From: Clostridiales bacterium
Lineage (GTDB): Bacteria > Bacillota > Clostridia > Christensenellales > UBA1750
Direction: 5' to 3'
DNA length: 35,976 nucleotides
NCBI GenBank assembly: GCA_015056005.1
Contig: SVHB01000023.1
Location: forward strand, 1 to 35,976
The stretch's first letter is position 1; each line of letters opens with the position of its first letter. Below, one piece after another: positions 9,801 through 19,579 of the stretch. Below the pieces are notes generated by a model. The model did no database searches. It had not been told where the DNA came from and worked only from the letters and a program-made list of their open reading frames with translations. The translations under genes were made by a program, and so were the position numbers.

Positions 9801-11132
9801 ATGTTTGGTGCAGCAAAAAAGTTTACTGCTGTTATAATAAGTCTTTGCATGCTCGCGGCCTGTTCCGCTCAGGCTCCCTCGATCGGCGAAAATGCGGCTC
9901 AGGAGATCATAACCGCGATCATTCCCGAGACGACCCCCGCGCCTTCGTCCTTGCCGGATGAATTAAAGGGCGATGCTGCAGGACAGGAGGTTTTGTCTTC
10001 TGCGCTCGATCTTGCCTCTGCAAGGCCTATGCTCAATGCTCTGGCTCAGGCGGTGATAAGGGCAGGGGAGGGCTTTGAAGAACAATGCTCCCAAGGACTT
10101 TTTACCAATTATATATATACACTGCTCAGGAGCGGCTGCATAGATGAAAACAACTCTCTGGCATCGGTCGACGAAAGCGGCCTTGTATATACCTTTGACG
10201 AGCAGGGTCTCATGCAGATATATGCAAAAATGATAAACACAGGCACCTATCCCGGCGTATGCGAAGGCATTGACGGAGTCAGGAAAGACGGTTCGGGAGC
10301 GGTTTTCACCCTTGCTCCCGGGGAAGCAGGGCAGTCCATGCTGATAAACGGCGTGACCGATCTTGGCGAGGGCAGATATTCGCTTTTCGTGACTCTCTGG
10401 GACGATGACGCGCAGGAAGGGGAAAGCAGCGACAAGGGCGATTACAGGGTGGAACTCAAAGCGCAGAGCGACGCGATATTCGGCTATGCCGTAAATGCGA
10501 TTGTAAGCTCCGAGCCAACGGTTGCAGCGACCTCGTCTCCCTCGGTCGTCAGCACCGCAAGGGCAAGGCTCGATGTTTTCTTCGGCTACGATTCGGTTGA
10601 AATGCTCGATGAGCTTTCTCCCATAATGGCTGCCGTCGTATCGGCTGTGGATGAAAACGAAGGCGTGTTCACAGTTTCTCCTTCGTCCCCGGTTGTATGG
10701 CGCGCGATGCAGCTCATGGTCAATACTTTGGGCTCAAGGCTTCCCGGCGTCAGTGTAAAGGACGGAAAAGCTTCCATATTATATGACGATATGCTGCTGA
10801 TGTATATGGACGTCTTCTATAATCCGGGGCTGGGCGTGCCCGATATTCCGGAGGAAATGGAAGACGATATCTCATACAGTGACGGGTTGTATACTTTTGT
10901 TATCGATTACAATGATACAGTAAAAACTCAGCTGGTTTCATACGAGGTATCTCAGGGCGTATCGTATTTTACAATGAACGACGATGGCGGGTTTGATCTG
11001 ACTAGCTTCAATGCCGACGCTCCCAGCGCCCTTTTCAAATACAAAACATCAGAGGGAACGGAGTATGTCGTAAGCCTCTGCCAGAGCGCAAGCTCCAATT
11101 ACGGCATCGGGATATTCGATGTGAAACAGTAA
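9801..11132 (+). CDS. Hypothetical lipoprotein
   Basis: 443 aa; signal peptide with lipobox LAAC followed by a Pro/Thr/Ser-rich linker; no family recognised. Confidence 0.75.
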   Translation: MFGAAKKFTAVIISLCMLAACSAQAPSIGENAAQEIITAIIPETTPAPSSLPDELKGDAAGQEVLSSALDLASARPMLNALAQAVIRAGEGFEEQCSQGLFTNYIYTLLRSGCIDENNSLASVDESGLVYTFDEQGLMQIYAKMINTGTYPGVCEGIDGVRKDGSGAVFTLAPGEAGQSMLINGVTDLGEGRYSLFVTLWDDDAQEGESSDKGDYRVELKAQSDAIFGYAVNAIVSSEPTVAATSSPSVVSTARARLDVFFGYDSVEMLDELSPIMAAVVSAVDENEGVFTVSPSSPVVWRAMQLMVNTLGSRLPGVSVKDGKASILYDDMLLMYMDVFYNPGLGVPDIPEEMEDDISYSDGLYTFVIDYNDTVKTQLVSYEVSQGVSYFTMNDDGGFDLTSFNADAPSALFKYKTSEGTEYVVSLCQSASSNYGIGIFDVKQ

Positions 11133-11455: not shown

Positions 11456-13741
11456 ATGAAGAAGATTCTTGCTATGCTTCTTGTTGCCACCATGATCTTT
11501 GCTATGGTCGGCTGCAGCAGCAATGAGCAGACTACTTCCGGTTCCACCGATACCACCGCTCAGGCAACTCCCGCTCCCGTGGAGTCCACCGAGCCCGAAG
11601 TATCCGAAGAGCCCGAAGAAACTGAAGAGACTGAAGAACCCGAAGAAGAAGTCTTCCAGACCCTGGCCGGTTTTGAATACGGCGTTGATTACATTTCCCT
11701 GTACGAGCAGTTCGGCAAGGAAGTAACCATCGATATGGTCGTTGAAGACATGACCACCGGTCTTGCATACGTTGAGATCGACGGCGAAGAGTATGAACTT
11801 GGTCTGGACTTCCTGACCATGGCTATGGTTTACAACACCGAGCCCGCCGGCGACTATGCTACCGCTGATGATGTCTACGCTGCATGGTGGAGACTTTACA
11901 TCCAGCGTTGGAACTATCTGCTTCCCGAAGTACCCCTGTACTCCAACGAGTACTATGATCTGTACAACTCTCAGATCAAGGGCGTTCAGGAATTCCCCAC
12001 CAACCCCTTCTGGTCTCCCTCCAGCGCTCTGATCGATTGGACCTCCGAGAAGGAAGACAATTCCATCATTATCGGTAACACCACCGACCTGTCCGGTAAG
12101 TTCCGTTACTCCAACTTTGGTGCTTCCAGCGCAAACGCTGCTGATGCTGATGTCTCTACTCTGACCACCGGCCTGCAGACTGTTGTCAACACCAAGGAAG
12201 GCGGCTACGTATGGAATGACACCGTTGTTAAGGAGCACAGCGAAACCGTAAATGAAGATGGTTCCAAGACCTTCACCATCACCATTTATGATGACCTGCT
12301 CTTCTCCGACGGTTCTCCCGTTCTGGCCAAGCACTATGTTGCTCGTCCCATCGTTTTCTCCACTCCCGTAGCTACCGAAGCAGCTGCAAGAGACCACAAG
12401 GGCACCATGAACTTTGTTGGTTACGAAGCATTTGCTAAGTACGACGGCACTGAGGCTTCCCTCGCTGACGGCGCTACCAAGGAAATCTCCGGCGTACGTC
12501 TCATCGACGATTACACCTTCTCCCTGACCGTTGATGCTCAGTATCTCCCCTACTTCTACGATATCACTTACGCTTCCCTCTCTCCCCAGTGGATCCCCAT
12601 GTGGATGGGCGAGTGCGACGTTGCTGACGATGGCAACGGTGTTTATATCACCGGTGACTTCTATGCTAAGGAAGGCGACAGCTACACTCTGGCTGCTCAT
12701 ATCGCAGAATCCGCACGCAACACTGATACCACCTATCCCTACAGCGGCCCCTACATGGTAGTTTCTTACGATCCTGCCGACAAGTCTGCTGTTATGGAAG
12801 CTAACCCCAACTTCAAGGGCAACTACGAAGGCGTTAAGCCCGCCATCGCTAAGGTTGTTTATAAGAAGATCGTTTCCAAGACTCAGCTCGAAGACCTCAA
12901 GGCAGGCGGCCTTGACGTTATCGCTGGTATCACCGGCGGCGACGAGACCAACGAAGCTCTGGCTCTGGCCGATTCTTCCGACGGCAAGTTCGTATATTCT
13001 CACTACAGCCGCGCTGGCTATGGTAAGCTCGGTTTCCGTGCTGACTATGGTCCCGTCCAGTTCACCGAAGTACGTCAGGCTATCGCATACTGCATGGACC
13101 GCGCTAAGTTCGCTAAGGACTTCACCGGCGGTTACGGCGGCGTTGTTGACGGCCCCTACTACACCGGCGCTTGGATGTACAAGGCAGCTGTTGAGCAGGG
13201 CATGCTCCTGAACGCTTATGCAACTTCTGTTGACTCCGCTATCGCTACCCTCGAAGAGGGCGGCTGGATCTACGACAAGGACGGCAACGAGTACGTTGAA
13301 GGCGTCCGTTATAAGAAGATCCCCGGCGAGTACGCTTCTGAGAACGACATCAACTACAAGTCCAAGGACGGCGCATACGTAACCACTAAGGTCGGCGACG
13401 ATTATTACATGCCTCTGGCTCTTAACTGGTACGGCACCACCGACAACCCCTTCACTGATCAGCTGCTCACCGGCTTCATGACCAATGACAACATGATCAA
13501 TGCTGGTTTCGTCGTACAGAACACCATCGGTGAGTTCAACCCCATGCTGGACGAACTGTATCAGGATACCGTTTACGGTTACTATTCCGGTTCTCCCATG
13601 TACAGCGTATTCAACTTTGCAACTTCCTTCGGAACTGCAGTTTATGACTACTCTTACAACATGACCATCGATCCTTCCATGTACGAGAACTACTCTTCTT
13701 ACTACATCAAGGACTTTGCTGACGCTTACTGGCTCAAGTAA
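11456..13741 (+). CDS. oppA: Peptide/oligopeptide ABC transporter substrate-binding lipoprotein (SBP_bac_5, OppA-like)
   Basis: 761 aa; lipobox MVGC; acidic Glu/Pro linker; SBP family 5 features (FTITIYDDLLFSDGSPVLAKHYV, PYSGPYMVVSYDPADKSAVMEANPNFKG); first gene of an ABC operon. Confidence 0.88.
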   Translation: MKKILAMLLVATMIFAMVGCSSNEQTTSGSTDTTAQATPAPVESTEPEVSEEPEETEETEEPEEEVFQTLAGFEYGVDYISLYEQFGKEVTIDMVVEDMTTGLAYVEIDGEEYELGLDFLTMAMVYNTEPAGDYATADDVYAAWWRLYIQRWNYLLPEVPLYSNEYYDLYNSQIKGVQEFPTNPFWSPSSALIDWTSEKEDNSIIIGNTTDLSGKFRYSNFGASSANAADADVSTLTTGLQTVVNTKEGGYVWNDTVVKEHSETVNEDGSKTFTITIYDDLLFSDGSPVLAKHYVARPIVFSTPVATEAAARDHKGTMNFVGYEAFAKYDGTEASLADGATKEISGVRLIDDYTFSLTVDAQYLPYFYDITYASLSPQWIPMWMGECDVADDGNGVYITGDFYAKEGDSYTLAAHIAESARNTDTTYPYSGPYMVVSYDPADKSAVMEANPNFKGNYEGVKPAIAKVVYKKIVSKTQLEDLKAGGLDVIAGITGGDETNEALALADSSDGKFVYSHYSRAGYGKLGFRADYGPVQFTEVRQAIAYCMDRAKFAKDFTGGYGGVVDGPYYTGAWMYKAAVEQGMLLNAYATSVDSAIATLEEGGWIYDKDGNEYVEGVRYKKIPGEYASENDINYKSKDGAYVTTKVGDDYYMPLALNWYGTTDNPFTDQLLTGFMTNDNMINAGFVVQNTIGEFNPMLDELYQDTVYGYYSGSPMYSVFNFATSFGTAVYDYSYNMTIDPSMYENYSSYYIKDFADAYWLK

Positions 13742-13950: not shown

Positions 13951-14994
13951 ATGGGAAAATATGTACTTAAGAGAATTGGATACATGGTTGTAGTTCTGCT
14001 CATCCTGTCCTTTCTCATGTTCCTGATATATAACCTGGTTCCCGCAAACCGTGCATACACCGATGCAAGGGCTGAGGTTAACGCCCTTAAGAACAGTATC
14101 CCTGCAGATCAGCTGGATGCTCGTTTTGATGAACTTTATCTTGAATATCAGCGCCGCTATGGTACGGATACCGATAATAAGGTCATTCGTTATCTCAGGT
14201 GGGTAGGTGTATATCCTCTTTATGACGGCACCTATAACGGTCTGCTGCAGGGCAACTTCGGTTATTCCTATCAGTGGCGTGACGACGTTGTCAATATCGT
14301 TGGCGCACCGCTCAAAAACACCATCAAGATAAATATCTTTGCGACTATACTGGCACTGGGCATAACTATACCTCTTGGTATTACCTGCGCAGTTAAGAAG
14401 GGCAGCAAGGGCGACCAGATCATGCAGGTCGTAACCCTTATCGGTTATTCTTTGCCCACCTTCATTATTGCCATTATGTTTATATGGTTCTTCTGTTCTA
14501 CTCTCAACTGGCTGCCGCCTTCCGGCATGAAGACCCCGGGCAGCAACTTTGTAGGCTGGGAAAAATTCCTTGATGAAGCACATTATATGATCCTTCCTTT
14601 GATCACCATGACCTTCTGCTCTCTGGGTGGTATGACCAGATACGTCCGTGCTTCCATGATCGAAGCTATGTCTCTGGACTGCATCAAGACCGCAAGGGCA
14701 AAGGGTCTTCGTGAAAAGGTCGTTATCTATTCCCACGCATGGCGCAACGCTCTGATCCCGATCGTAACCTTGGTCGTCGGTTGGTTCCTGGGCATCTTCT
14801 CCGGTTCTTTGGTCATCGAGCAGATGTTCGCGCTCAACGGCATGGGCAACCTTATGATAACCTCTCTGCAGACTCAGGACTTTGACGTAATCATCCTCCT
14901 GCAGATGTTCTACGTTATCATTTCTCTCTTGGGCAACCTGATCATTGACCTTGTCTATGGTCTTGTCGATCCCAGAGTCAGAGTCAATAAGTAA
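13951..14994 (+). CDS. oppB: Oligopeptide ABC transporter permease (OppB/DppB-like)
   Basis: 347 aa; GNFGYSYQWRDDV, EAMSLDCIKTARAKGLREKVV EAA-loop, VIEQMFALNGMGNL, DLVYGLVDPRVRV. Confidence 0.92.
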   Translation: MGKYVLKRIGYMVVVLLILSFLMFLIYNLVPANRAYTDARAEVNALKNSIPADQLDARFDELYLEYQRRYGTDTDNKVIRYLRWVGVYPLYDGTYNGLLQGNFGYSYQWRDDVVNIVGAPLKNTIKINIFATILALGITIPLGITCAVKKGSKGDQIMQVVTLIGYSLPTFIIAIMFIWFFCSTLNWLPPSGMKTPGSNFVGWEKFLDEAHYMILPLITMTFCSLGGMTRYVRASMIEAMSLDCIKTARAKGLREKVVIYSHAWRNALIPIVTLVVGWFLGIFSGSLVIEQMFALNGMGNLMITSLQTQDFDVIILLQMFYVIISLLGNLIIDLVYGLVDPRVRVNK

Positions 14995-15009: not shown

Positions 15010-16983
15010 ATGAGTAAAAAAGATAACAAAAAGAACGGTTTCCTCCGCACCGGCAACTGGCTGACCCGTATGTTTATGGGTGCAGATAAGCAGTATACCG
15101 ATGAAAAGCTCAAGGAAATGGAAGAAGCCAAGAACGCCGCTCAGGTAAGCGACGTTGAGGAGATCGTATCTCCCACCAGGCAGATCATCAACAATTTCTT
15201 CTCCAAGAAGCTTGCCGTTGGTGCTCTCATATTCCTCATTTCCATGTTCCTCTTTGTTCTCATCGGTCCCAAATTCATGCCTACCTATACCGATTCTTAT
15301 ACTGAGGTCACTCAGAAGAGCGTCGAACCCGGTCTGGACATGATGAGCGTTCCGAAGGAACTTGAAGGCGACATCAAGGACATCGACAGCTGGGGCTCTT
15401 TCTCCGTTGGTCTGTCCAACTCCGGTAAGGTCTATGTCTGGGGCGCTACCAAGCTCGGCACCACCAAGATCGACATAGCTGATATCCCCGAGGACGTGCA
15501 GAACGCCAAGATCGAAATGATCGCAGCAGGTATTGACCATATCATCGCTATCGATGAAAACGGCAAGATCCACGGCTGGGGCTATAACCGTTTCGGTCAG
15601 TACAGCGTAGATCAGGAAATACTTGACAACCCCAACATCGCTGCAATGCCTGAAGAGATCAGGGACGGCATTGATGTTTCCAAGATCAAGAAGCTCACTG
15701 CAGGCTATCAGTGCACCGCTATCCTTATGGAAGACGGTACCCTGTATGTCTGGGGCAACAAGCTTGCATATGCCAATATCGATAAGTTCCTTGTAGATAC
15801 CAAGTTTAAGGACATCGATTTCACTCTTAACTATGTTGTAGGTATTCCCGAGCGTGCAAACGGTGTTTATACCGGTCAGCGCGGTCTGTATGATCAGGTT
15901 AAGAAAAACGTTACCGGCGAAACCAAGGATATCGGTAAGTTCCTTGGCAAGCGCAAGATTGAAGAGATCGAAACCACCAACTCCAACATTTGCCTGAGAC
16001 TCGATGACAACTCAATTTGCTTCATCGGTGACTTCTCTCAGAACGATAAGCCCGCTCCTACCCTTCCCGAAGGCGAGTACTTCGTTGATATCGGTTCCGG
16101 TACTTACCATTATGCCGGTATTACCAACAAGGGCAATGTATATTCCTGGGGCGGCAATACCTTTGGTCAGTCTAACGAGCCCAAGGATGCCTCCGGTGCC
16201 TCCAAGCTGTTCGTCGGCGCTTTCCAGAACTATACTGTAGATGCCAACAATAAGCTCGTCTCCAGATGGGGCCTCAAGGGCTACCTCTTTGGAACCGATA
16301 CCTACGGCGCTGACGTATTCAAGCGTATCGTAAACGGCGGTAAGATGACCATGACCATCGGTGCTGTTGCGGTTATCATCTCCTCCATTATCGGTATTAT
16401 GGTCGGCTGTATCGCAGGTTACTTCGGCGGCAAGGTCGATATCCTGCTCATGCGTATAACCGAAATCGTTTCCGCTATCCCGTTCATCCCCTTCGCAATG
16501 ATACTTTCCGCTATCATGGCGCAGATGACGCTGAGCGAAAACATGAGAATATTCATAATAATGTGCATACTTGGTGTTCTTTCCTGGACCGGTATCGCTC
16601 GTCTTGTCCGTGGTCAGGTTCTTGTTGCCCGTGAAAACGAGTACGTTCTGGCTGCACAGGCAATGGGCGTTAAGGAATCCAAGATCGCATTCAAGCACAT
16701 TCTGCCCAACATTATCTCCGTTATCATGGTCAACCTGACCCTTAACTTCGCCAGCTGCATGCTGACCGAATCCTCTCTGTCCTACCTCGGATTCGGTGTT
16801 GCATATCCCAAGCCCACTTGGGGCAACATGCTCAACGGTGCAAACAACGCTACCGTTATCGGCAACTACTGGTGGCAGTGGGTGTTCACCGCTCTGTTCC
16901 TTGCTCTGACCACCATCTGCATCAACATCCTTGGCGATGCGCTGCGCGACGTTATGGATCCGAAGTCCAATATTGAAAAGTAA
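15010..16983 (+). CDS. oppC: Oligopeptide ABC transporter permease (OppC-like) with an embedded RCC1-like beta-propeller domain
   Basis: 657 aa. N-terminal TM1 (KLAVGALIFLISMFLFVLIGPKF), then RCC1-like repeats at about residues 118-424 (GKVYVWGA, GKIHGWGYNRFGQ, GTLYVWGN, GNVYSWGGNTFGQ), then the normal OppC core (YLFGTDTYGADVFKRIVNGG, VLAAQAMGVKESKIAFKHILPN, ESSLSYLGFGVAYPKPTWGNML). Confidence 0.92.
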   Translation: MSKKDNKKNGFLRTGNWLTRMFMGADKQYTDEKLKEMEEAKNAAQVSDVEEIVSPTRQIINNFFSKKLAVGALIFLISMFLFVLIGPKFMPTYTDSYTEVTQKSVEPGLDMMSVPKELEGDIKDIDSWGSFSVGLSNSGKVYVWGATKLGTTKIDIADIPEDVQNAKIEMIAAGIDHIIAIDENGKIHGWGYNRFGQYSVDQEILDNPNIAAMPEEIRDGIDVSKIKKLTAGYQCTAILMEDGTLYVWGNKLAYANIDKFLVDTKFKDIDFTLNYVVGIPERANGVYTGQRGLYDQVKKNVTGETKDIGKFLGKRKIEEIETTNSNICLRLDDNSICFIGDFSQNDKPAPTLPEGEYFVDIGSGTYHYAGITNKGNVYSWGGNTFGQSNEPKDASGASKLFVGAFQNYTVDANNKLVSRWGLKGYLFGTDTYGADVFKRIVNGGKMTMTIGAVAVIISSIIGIMVGCIAGYFGGKVDILLMRITEIVSAIPFIPFAMILSAIMAQMTLSENMRIFIIMCILGVLSWTGIARLVRGQVLVARENEYVLAAQAMGVKESKIAFKHILPNIISVIMVNLTLNFASCMLTESSLSYLGFGVAYPKPTWGNMLNGANNATVIGNYWWQWVFTALFLALTTICINILGDALRDVMDPKSNIEK

Positions 16984-16995
16984 GGGGGGACCACT

Positions 16996-18009
16996 ATGGC
17001 ATTGCTTGAAGTTAAAAACCTGCGTACATTCTTTAAGACCAAGAAGGGTATAGTCAAGGCTGTCAACGACGTGTCCTATTCCCTCGAGAGCGGCCGTACG
17101 ATCGGTATAGTCGGTGAATCCGGCTCCGGTAAGTCCGTCTCCGCCATGAGTATCCTGCGCCTGCTCGACGCTAACGGTTATATCGAAAGCGGCGAAGTCC
17201 TCTTTGAAGGCAAGGAGCTCACCAAGCTCTCCACCGATGAGATGTATCACATCCGCGGTAACTCCATCTCAGTTATTTTCCAGGAGCCCATGACCTCCCT
17301 GAACCCTGTTTTCACCGTTGAAGAGCAGCTCTCCGAGCCCTTCATCATCCATCAGGGTATGAATAAAAAGAAGGCAAGGCAGGAAGCTCTGAAGATGCTT
17401 TATGACGTTCAGATCCCTAACCCTGAAGCCGTTATCAAGCAGTATCCCCATCAGCTCTCCGGCGGTATGCGTCAGCGCGTTATGATCGCTATGGCACTTG
17501 CCTGCAAGCCTAAGATCCTGATCGCCGACGAGCCCACCACTGCGCTTGACGTTACCATTCAGGCACAGATCCTGCACCTCATGAACGAGCTGCAGAAGGA
17601 AAACGGCACTGCGATTATCTTCATCACCCATGACCTTGGTGTTATCAACGAAATGGCTGATGATGTTGCCGTTATGTACTGCGGTCAGGTCGTCGAAAAG
17701 GCAACCGCCCGCACCATTTTCAGCGACTGCGAGATGAGCCATCCTTATACCGAAGGTTTGATGTTCTCCATTCCCCGCCTTGGCAAGGAAACTGAGAAGA
17801 TCGAGCCCATTCCCGGCGTTGTTCCCCATCCTCTGGCGCTGCCCAAGGGCTGCAAATTTGCGCCCCGCTGCAAGTATGCCACCAAGAAGTGCATGGAAGA
17901 GGAACCCGAGCTCAAGGATATCGGCAATGGCCAGCTCATCAGATGTTTTTATCCGGAAAAGGAGGTAAGGAACAGTGCAGAACACAAAAAAAATACTGTC
18001 AATAACTAA
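16996..18009 (+). CDS. oppD: Oligopeptide ABC transporter ATP-binding protein (OppD-like)
   Basis: 337 aa; Walker [24 protein letters not shown], Walker [16 protein letters not shown]-terminal oligo_HPY Cys motif region. Confidence 0.94.
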
Positions 18010-19579
18010 CCTTAAAAAGTATTTTCCTGTTGCTAAGTCCTCCATCTTCCAGAAGCAGCAGCTTTATGTCCGCGCTAACGAAGATATCACCCTAGACATT
18101 TTTGAGGGCGAGACCCTTGGTATAGTCGGTGAGTCCGGCTGCGGCAAATCTACTCTTGGTCGTGTTCTCCTCCAGCTCTATCCTCAGACCGCGGGCAATA
18201 CCATGTACTACGGCAAGACTCTGGATGAGATGACTCCCAAGTATGTGGAAGATACCATCAAGCGTTATGACAGATATCTTGCCAAGTTCAACAAGGCAAG
18301 CGCAAGAGCCAACGAGCTTTCCAAGAAGGTCGAAGAGATCGGTGAAGACAAAGCTGATTTCTATCTGATCCAGGATCGCAACCTTGCAAAGTGCGAGGAA
18401 CAGACCTGCCTTAACAACATGGTCACCATCCTCGGCGGTTTCTTCGTTAAGAAGGATCAGCAGGCTCTTGATCTTATGCTCAAGATCTACGGCGAAAACC
18501 AGAAGCGTAATGCAGTAAATGAAAAGTACGCTGATGCCAAGGTCGAGTATGATCATCTGGAGCATGAAGATGCACAGAAGAATGCTTCCAAGATCGATGC
18601 TCTCAAGACTCAGCTTGACCAGCTCCAGGGCGAGATCGACAAGATCAGCGCCGTCATCGATGAGCTCAACAAGCAGCTTGACGGTATTCGCGAAAAGTAT
18701 GCCGGCGACGAAGAGTTCAGCAAGTATGAGGCAATGCGCGACTACGGTATCGACCTTGCAAGGCTTAAGTATACCGAAATGCGCTTCCTGAGAAAGGATC
18801 TGCAGATCATCTTCCAGGATCCCTATTCCAGCCTTAACCCCAGACTGACCGTTGGTCAGATCATCGAGGAAGGTCTTGTAACCCATAAGTTCTTCAAGCA
18901 CGGCTCTCAGAAGATGCGCGACTACATCGTAGAGACTATGGAAAAATGCGGTCTGCAGGAATACATGCTCCACCGTTACCCCCATCAGTTCTCCGGCGGT
19001 CAGAGACAGCGTATCGCTATCGCCCGTGCGCTGGCTGTTAAGCCCAAGTTCGTTGTCTGCGATGAATGCGTTTCCGCTCTGGACGTTTCCATTCAGTCTC
19101 AGATTATCAACCTGCTGCAGGAACTCAAGGAGAAGGAACATCTGACCTATATGTTCATCTCTCATGACCTTTCCGTTGTCAGATATATCTCCGATCGTAT
19201 CTGCGTTATGTACCTTGGTAATGTTGTTGAGCTGGCAGACGCTGCTACCGTTTTTGATGACCCCCGTCATCCTTATACCGTGGCACTGCTGTCCTCCATC
19301 CCCACCACCGATATAGACAGCCTCTCCAAGGAGCGCATCATTCTCGAAGGCAACATTCCCAGCCCCATCAAGCCTCCGTCCGGCTGCAAGTTCCGTACCC
19401 GTTGCTACATGGCATGCGAGAAGTGTGAACGTGTTCCCCCGGAACTGCGCGAGATCGAGCCCGGTCATTTTGTTGCCTGCCACTTCCCCGAAAAGAAGAT
19501 GGATGCGGACGGCAATTACCTGTTCGAGCTGCCCAAGATGGAGCGCAAGAGCATGCGTAAAGAGGAAAGCGAGAACTAA
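17975..19579 (+). CDS. oppF: Oligopeptide ABC transporter ATP-binding protein (OppF-like) with a ~190-aa coiled-coil-like insertion
   Basis: 534 aa, GTG start after AAGGAGG, overlaps oppD by 35 nt. Walker [11 protein letters not shown]-loop [30 protein letters not shown], Walker [21 protein letters not shown]; a long charged helical segment separates Walker A from the Q-loop. Confidence 0.92.

Follow-up and report, generated by a model that had tools for sequence, protein, structure and literature searches.

A seven-bladed RCC1-like propeller embedded in the OppC permease of a predicted Opp/Dpp-type importer

The OppC permease encoded by a Clostridiales bacterium contains an embedded seven-bladed RCC1-like propeller, recognizable from predicted strand groups and fold matches as well as from sequence matches. 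At roughly even odds (a probability near 0.5), this propeller is an extracellular platform for docking and clamping the lipid-anchored binding protein OppA. The gene lies in a five-gene operon, oppA-oppB-oppC-oppD-oppF, with every gene on the + strand of contig SVHB01000023.1 (assembly GCA_015056005.1). All coordinates refer to the window, the whole stretch of this contig under analysis (35,976 nt, forward strand). An upstream 443-aa open reading frame (9801-11132) is not a member of the conserved operon. The genes and their elements are as follows.

11456..13741, + strand: oppA, family-5 solute-binding lipoprotein, 761 aa, circularly permuted (PF00496, E 2.7e-30)
11666..11830, + strand: element X, OppA residues 71-125, between the lipoprotein linker and the moved segment (phmmer)
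11810..12052, + strand: OppA residues 119-199, homologous to the C-terminal segment (PLYSN) of an ordinary OppA but relocated N-terminally (matches to the OppA of locus L035 and to 9p48_A)
12053..13669, + strand: OppA residues 200-738, homologous to the N-terminal through middle region of an ordinary OppA (matches to L035 OppA, 39%, and to 9p48_A)
13951..14994, + strand: oppB, permease of ordinary length, 347 aa (PF00528, E 6e-39)
15010..16983, + strand: oppC, propeller-bearing permease, 657 aa, ATG start, single uninterrupted frame
15208..15276, + strand: OppC TM1 (residues 67-89), a helix in the model (OppC_N, 54-94)
15370..16281, + strand: seven-bladed RCC1-like propeller, OppC residues 121-424 (Pfam, phmmer against PDB sequences, profile self-comparison, AlphaFold2, Foldseek)
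16282..16980, + strand: OppC permease core from YLFGTD (residue 425), with the coupling-helix region EYVLAAQAMGVKESKIAFKHILPN (BPD_transp_1, Foldseek)
16996..18009, + strand: oppD, ATPase of ordinary length, 337 aa, with the oligo_HPY Cys region
17975..19579, + strand: oppF, enlarged ATPase, 534 aa
18230..18739, + strand: coiled-coil-like OppF insert, residues 86-255, between Walker A and Q-loop (locus comparison, periodicity)

The gene content is that of an Opp/Dpp-type importer, with a family-5 binding protein, a second permease and two oligo_HPY ATPases beside OppC. OppA matches PF00496 with 106.2 bits (cut-off 32.4), and each of the two ATPases matches both PF00005 and PF08352 in Pfam. Using hmmscan, OppC matches OppC_N at residues 54-94 (E 2.5e-7, 30.9 bits, cut-off 23.9) and BPD_transp_1 at residues 462-652 (E 1.4e-31, 110.1 bits, cut-off 26.4). 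The coupling-helix motif EAA---G---------I-LP is present as EYVLAAQAMGVKESKIAFKHILPN and is conserved across the OppC alignment (A1). Against the NCBIfam families, OppB scores 226.7 bits with Opp4B, under the cut-off of 450, and OppC falls below the equivalog cut-offs of Opp4C, Opp3C and OppC, its best score being 296.3 bits with Opp4C (curated cut-off 350); OppC is therefore a relative rather than an equivalog. Collectively the family matches point to an Opp/Dpp-type (type I) ABC importer, for which the term peptide is assigned by family only. Gene neighbors provide no clue to the substrate, as conservation of genes flanking the operon does not extend past close relatives.

A first-pass annotation of this DNA had read oppC as TM1, an RCC1-like insert and the OppC core in one frame, an arrangement borne out by the open reading frame at 15010-16983 and by hmmscan. 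Repeats of RCC1_2 and RCC1 span OppC residues ~115-420, both above the Pfam cut-off (RCC1_2 over four stretches, E 2.9e-28, 97.3 bits, cut-off 22; RCC1 at 138-181, E 1.2e-10, 42.2 bits, cut-off 21.7), while the score for the full-length family WD40_RLD (PF25390) is 104.6 bits, below its threshold of 150. The insert alone, compared with PDB sequences (phmmer), matches UVR8 (2.5e-26), yeast SRM1/RCC1 (2e-19), HERC2 (2e-14) and BLIP-II (4e-13); chance repeats are ruled out by the Pfam and PDB-sequence E-values. Profile self-comparison identifies in-register units starting at OppC residues 121, 167, 225, 265, 316 and 357, and AlphaFold2 adds a seventh at 399-421. The count of seven given by the first-pass annotation thus holds, as do the units it quoted; of the span it assigned, 15361-16281, the end is correct and the start is off by about three residues, 15370-16281 being the better placement.

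Structure prediction of the 657-aa OppC alone (AlphaFold2, built from 38 homologues with no templates) followed by Foldseek yields the propeller fold. The 21 modelled strands fall into seven triplets (122-145, 168-191, 226-250, 265-307, 317-340, 358-381, and 399-421), with a pLDDT of about 85-95 over the propeller domain. The fourth unit, degenerate in sequence as originally described, nevertheless forms a blade. Model quality is lower for the permease core (pLDDT 66-81 in most blocks and <50 at 592-616), and details of it therefore carry no weight. Both halves of the whole model find matches in Foldseek, namely E. coli and M. tuberculosis OppC chains (E. coli OppC 8z21_B, E 2.9e-13, 37% identity; 8j5s_C, 5.4e-13) together with UVR8 and BLIP-II. 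The best sequence and fold matches of the insert, UVR8, RCC1, HERC2 domains and BLIP-II, are likewise RCC1-like seven-bladed propellers, but these are soluble proteins or belong to non-transport proteins, not to a membrane transporter.

The propeller is inserted between TM1 (67-89) and TM2 (436-472) of the model. The TM1-TM2 loop is periplasmic or extracellular in E. coli DppBC (PMC12136057) and in pneumococcal AmiD (PMC11192437), and because this loop is the insertion point, the OppC propeller should also lie outside the membrane. By this analogy, an outward-facing location, as proposed in the first-pass annotation, is supported. A propeller on the cytoplasmic side was considered and is ruled out, the inserted loop being external in the solved homologues. 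A charge count around TM1, made for topology, gives 12 K/R and 10 D/E in OppC residues 1-66.

A scan of representative genomes recovered 38 loci with the OppC-propeller fusion, at 43-68% identity and nearly all full length. These include the Butyrivibrio isolates AE2015, Su6, AE3009, MC2021, and P18, as well as MAGs labelled Lachnospiraceae, Oscillospiraceae, Clostridia, and, in one case, Erysipelotrichaceae. Mis-assembly is excluded because 38 independent genome records encode the same fusion, and an assembly chimera or frameshift join of oppC is ruled out by the single frame and by the occurrence of the fusion in isolates and MAGs alike. Propeller OppCs are found in 33 of 396 sampled genomes of the contig's order (all fetched and verified), 17 of 388 of its class, and 14 of 398 of its phylum, families outside the class included; a single-genome oddity is ruled out by these samples. 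Altogether the search for other OppC-RCC1 fusions yields 87 loci from several families, a few of them representing one genome met through two collections. Both the OppC-propeller architecture and the operon are conserved, the A-B-C-D-F order being kept in every propeller locus long enough, and the number of blades is constant across the aligned OppC rows. In a quickly searched phylogeny of the permease core, in which some outgroup branches are long, the 87 propeller OppCs form one clade (SH-aLRT 99) with 24 propeller-less OppCs outside. The insert cannot have grouped these rows because the tree was built on the core alone. No propeller-less member was seen within the clade among the 87 loci, and the tree shows a single insertion of the propeller into OppC with no loss seen.

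Several variations on this theme were observed. The source genome holds a second operon (C56; L090:1-4035) with a canonical OppA of 615 aa, an OppB, and a divergent propeller OppC cut by the contig end. In Butyrivibrio members (L005-L007, L009-L011, L014, and L018), the loop joining blades 2 and 3 contains an inserted acidic stretch, some tens of residues long and rich in Glu/Ala (alignment A1, columns 256-330), and L097 and L099 have long N-terminal OppC extensions (777, 822 aa) before TM1 or the propeller. The genome of L139 encodes a separate 360-aa protein with RCC1-like repeats (L139:2208-3287, - strand), probably cytoplasmic and unrelated to the operon.

Mean pairwise identity is 42% for the propeller vs. 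74% for the permease core. Such low conservation counts against the docking of OppA, and a surface domain whose ligands change would be expected to show it too. It would suit a propeller that is a binding domain in its own right, with the substrate, a glycan or the cell wall as its ligand (candidates being peptidoglycan, fibre and host glycan), and that pre-captures cargo or anchors the transporter in the envelope independently of OppA. Many owners of the propeller are rumen or gut fermenters, and the Foldseek matches of OppA cover peptide, nickel and oligosaccharide binders (e.g., TM1223), so that the cargo need not be a peptide. However, no glycan-binding domain was matched in the Pfam scan and no conserved neighbors for glycan or wall metabolism were found, and an independent binding role is considered unlikely.

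The binding protein has itself been rearranged. The OppA model has the family-5 binding protein fold (pLDDT 83), with Foldseek matches to OppA and NikA structures (best OppA 3fto, 1.9e-15), and the lipobox-type Cys20 is invariant in alignment A3. The segments do not follow the canonical order, the C-terminal segment preceding the N-terminal part. OppA residues 203-738 align with residues 68-547 of the canonical L035 OppA (39%), and residues 130-198 align with 572-634 (45%), in swapped order. Similarly, an OppA profile compared with the solved OppA 9p48_A places residues 207-277 on 21-86, 400-553 on 166-310, and 121-179 on the last residues, 502-560. OppA is thus a naturally circularly permuted family-5 binding protein. 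Element X has a phmmer match in every permuted OppA and in zero canonical OppAs.

Among 77 propeller-locus rows with a scored OppA, 44 are permuted and 33 canonical; the latter count against the docking reading, and because they pair a propeller with an ordinary OppA, permutation is not required for the propeller. Permuted OppAs are confined to one subclade (99) of the propeller clade, and within this subclade a small lineage with canonical OppA (L098, L104) is also found. A query spanning the OppA junction gave full-length matches in 13 genomes of the order sample (396), all 13 of which are propeller genomes. The L098 and L104 OppAs have the canonical order within the permuted subclade, yet keep the LGMNYISMAMVYS motif common to permuted forms, and represent either a reversal or a pre-permutation form. 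A solitary second permuted OppA of 787 aa (L193:3920-6280) has no permease genes within the 12 kb fetched and a full operon elsewhere in the genome; it could serve as an orphan binding protein supplying that operon's transporter.

Neither OppB nor OppD is enlarged. The insert in OppF, of ~170 residues, is rich in charged residues and poor in G/P, has a 3.5-residue hydrophobic periodicity above 95% of shuffles, and finds only weak coiled-coil matches in Pfam. An OppF insert of 141-199 aa is present in 80 of the 83 propeller loci having OppF, the exceptions being one propeller subclade (L017, L100, L101) in which it is lost or shortened, and is absent from 11 of 11 sister operons without a propeller. 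DppC pairs with DppF in the solved E. coli complex (PMC12136057), and because of this pairing the propeller and the OppF insert would, by analogy, be expected on one transporter half, which may also have a cytoplasmic partner or coupling role. Such a half could act as a sensor, with the propeller reading an outside signal or the loading of OppA and relaying it through OppC and the OppF coiled coil to a cytoplasmic partner, combining transporter and receptor in one. This would fit the appearance of both extensions in the same clade, with the 11 sister operons devoid of both, and their expected sharing of one half. No signalling gene is conserved beside the operon, however, and the subclade with the OppF insert lost or shortened also argues against a sensor, which seems quite unlikely. 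It is similarly doubtful that the propeller, the OppF coiled coil and a re-tethered, permuted OppA constitute one mechanism in which the C/F half serves as a transmembrane sensor or regulated gate; if true, this would be a control mode not described for peptide importers.

About ten propeller-less OppCs outside the clade carry different large inserts in the TM1-TM2 loop (relatives with such inserts are L146, L148, L149, L152-L156, L159, L168, and L169). One insert type has repeated F.(F/Y).G..Y-like units, and Pfam gave no match in the four alternative inserts scanned. Clostridial relatives (L146, L148, L149, L159, and others) carry a large OppC insert at the equivalent position, but without an RCC1 signature or Pfam match, and their OppF is without the coiled coil. 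The TM1-TM2 loop of OppC is a recurrent site of domain gain in these bacteria; frequent unrelated inserts are as expected if the site faces the binding protein. Alternatively, the loop may accept any folded insert, and the propeller may merely space the transporter from the wall or shield it from wall, inhibitors or phage. The unrelated inserts in sister OppCs are indeed of similar size, and the closest structures include BLIP-II, a secreted propeller of this fold whose binding target is a protein. Nonetheless, the lack of any loss in 87 loci, the fixed blade number and the invariant polar face suggest a specific role, and a purely passive one is very unlikely.

The preferred reading remains the docking of OppA, favored by a propeller recognized from sequence and fold, by 87 loci in a single clade, with gene order kept wherever the locus is long enough, and by the occurrence of permuted OppA solely with the propeller. 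In models of the pneumococcal Ami system, a clamping of the binding protein is predicted for the AmiC extracellular domains, and the AmiD TM1-TM2 loop touches lobe 2 of that protein (PMC11192437). Cryo-EM of DppABCDF shows the DppB TM1-TM2 scoop inserted into the cleft of DppA, the binding protein (PMC12136057). Because these loops contact the binding protein, the OppC propeller should lie beside docked OppA, and by analogy contact between the two is plausible. The propeller would stand beside the channel mouth, where it would dock and clamp OppA, raising its local concentration, and present it in an orientation that lets OppB's own loop pry it apart, with no reliance on free collision. In a subclade, permutation moves the lipid tether of OppA to another point on the protein, perhaps as a later adjustment of its seating against the propeller. 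The polar propeller residues D176/H177, Q234, H367, Q406, and Y408, invariant among the aligned rows, lie on A-B turns or adjacent strand starts, which suggests that they mark one conserved working face. Only Q234, Q406, and Y408 are clearly special among them, because H177/H367 and the WG/GQ positions belong to the RCC1 consensus.

Large extracellular domains on Opp-type permeases are already known, as in AmiC. Pneumococcal AmiC has such a domain (ECD1/ECD2) between TM1 and TM2, proposed to clamp the binding protein, and the OppC propeller occupies the same loop (PMC11192437). AmiC, however, is an OppB-type permease, whereas the propeller is found on OppC with an OppB of ordinary length; no propeller is reported for the AmiC domains (residues 31-278), whose role too rests on AlphaFold models (PMC11192437). 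E. coli DppABCDF and OppBCDF, and M. tuberculosis OppABCD and DppABCD, have a core fold in common with this OppC (Foldseek), but their DppC/OppC proteins are without a propeller, no coiled coil is reported for DppF/OppF, and their binding proteins are in ordinary order. The P2 loop of MalF in the maltose importer is likewise a permease loop with an inserted extracytoplasmic domain that is folded and contacts the binding protein, but differs from the propeller in loop, fold, and importer family. The first-pass annotation, which had noted neither the wider family and second operon nor the permuted OppA and the OppF insert, knew of no characterized peptide importer with this architecture, and a literature search with limited coverage of subscription journals likewise found none. 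Searches for RCC1 with OppC or permease, for RCC1 with Butyrivibrio, and for permuted oligopeptide-binding proteins (OppA) returned nothing relevant, which at this coverage is no proof of novelty. As a combination, the propeller fold, its location in OppC, the insert of OppF and a permuted OppA appear new.

Few nutrient systems of the Firmicutes are commoner than Opp-type importers, and the guidance of the binding protein to the permease is still debated. Here a large, ready-made protein-binding fold was built onto the permease once and retained across several gut and rumen bacterial families, with a coiled coil also inserted in the partner ATPase and OppA seemingly permuted later, and the transporter looks heavily remodelled around the docking of its cargo (binding) protein. 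Operons with and without each of these changes coexist, even in one genome, and thus provide a natural test of docking models, while a naturally permuted solute-binding protein is relevant to permutation-based biosensor design.
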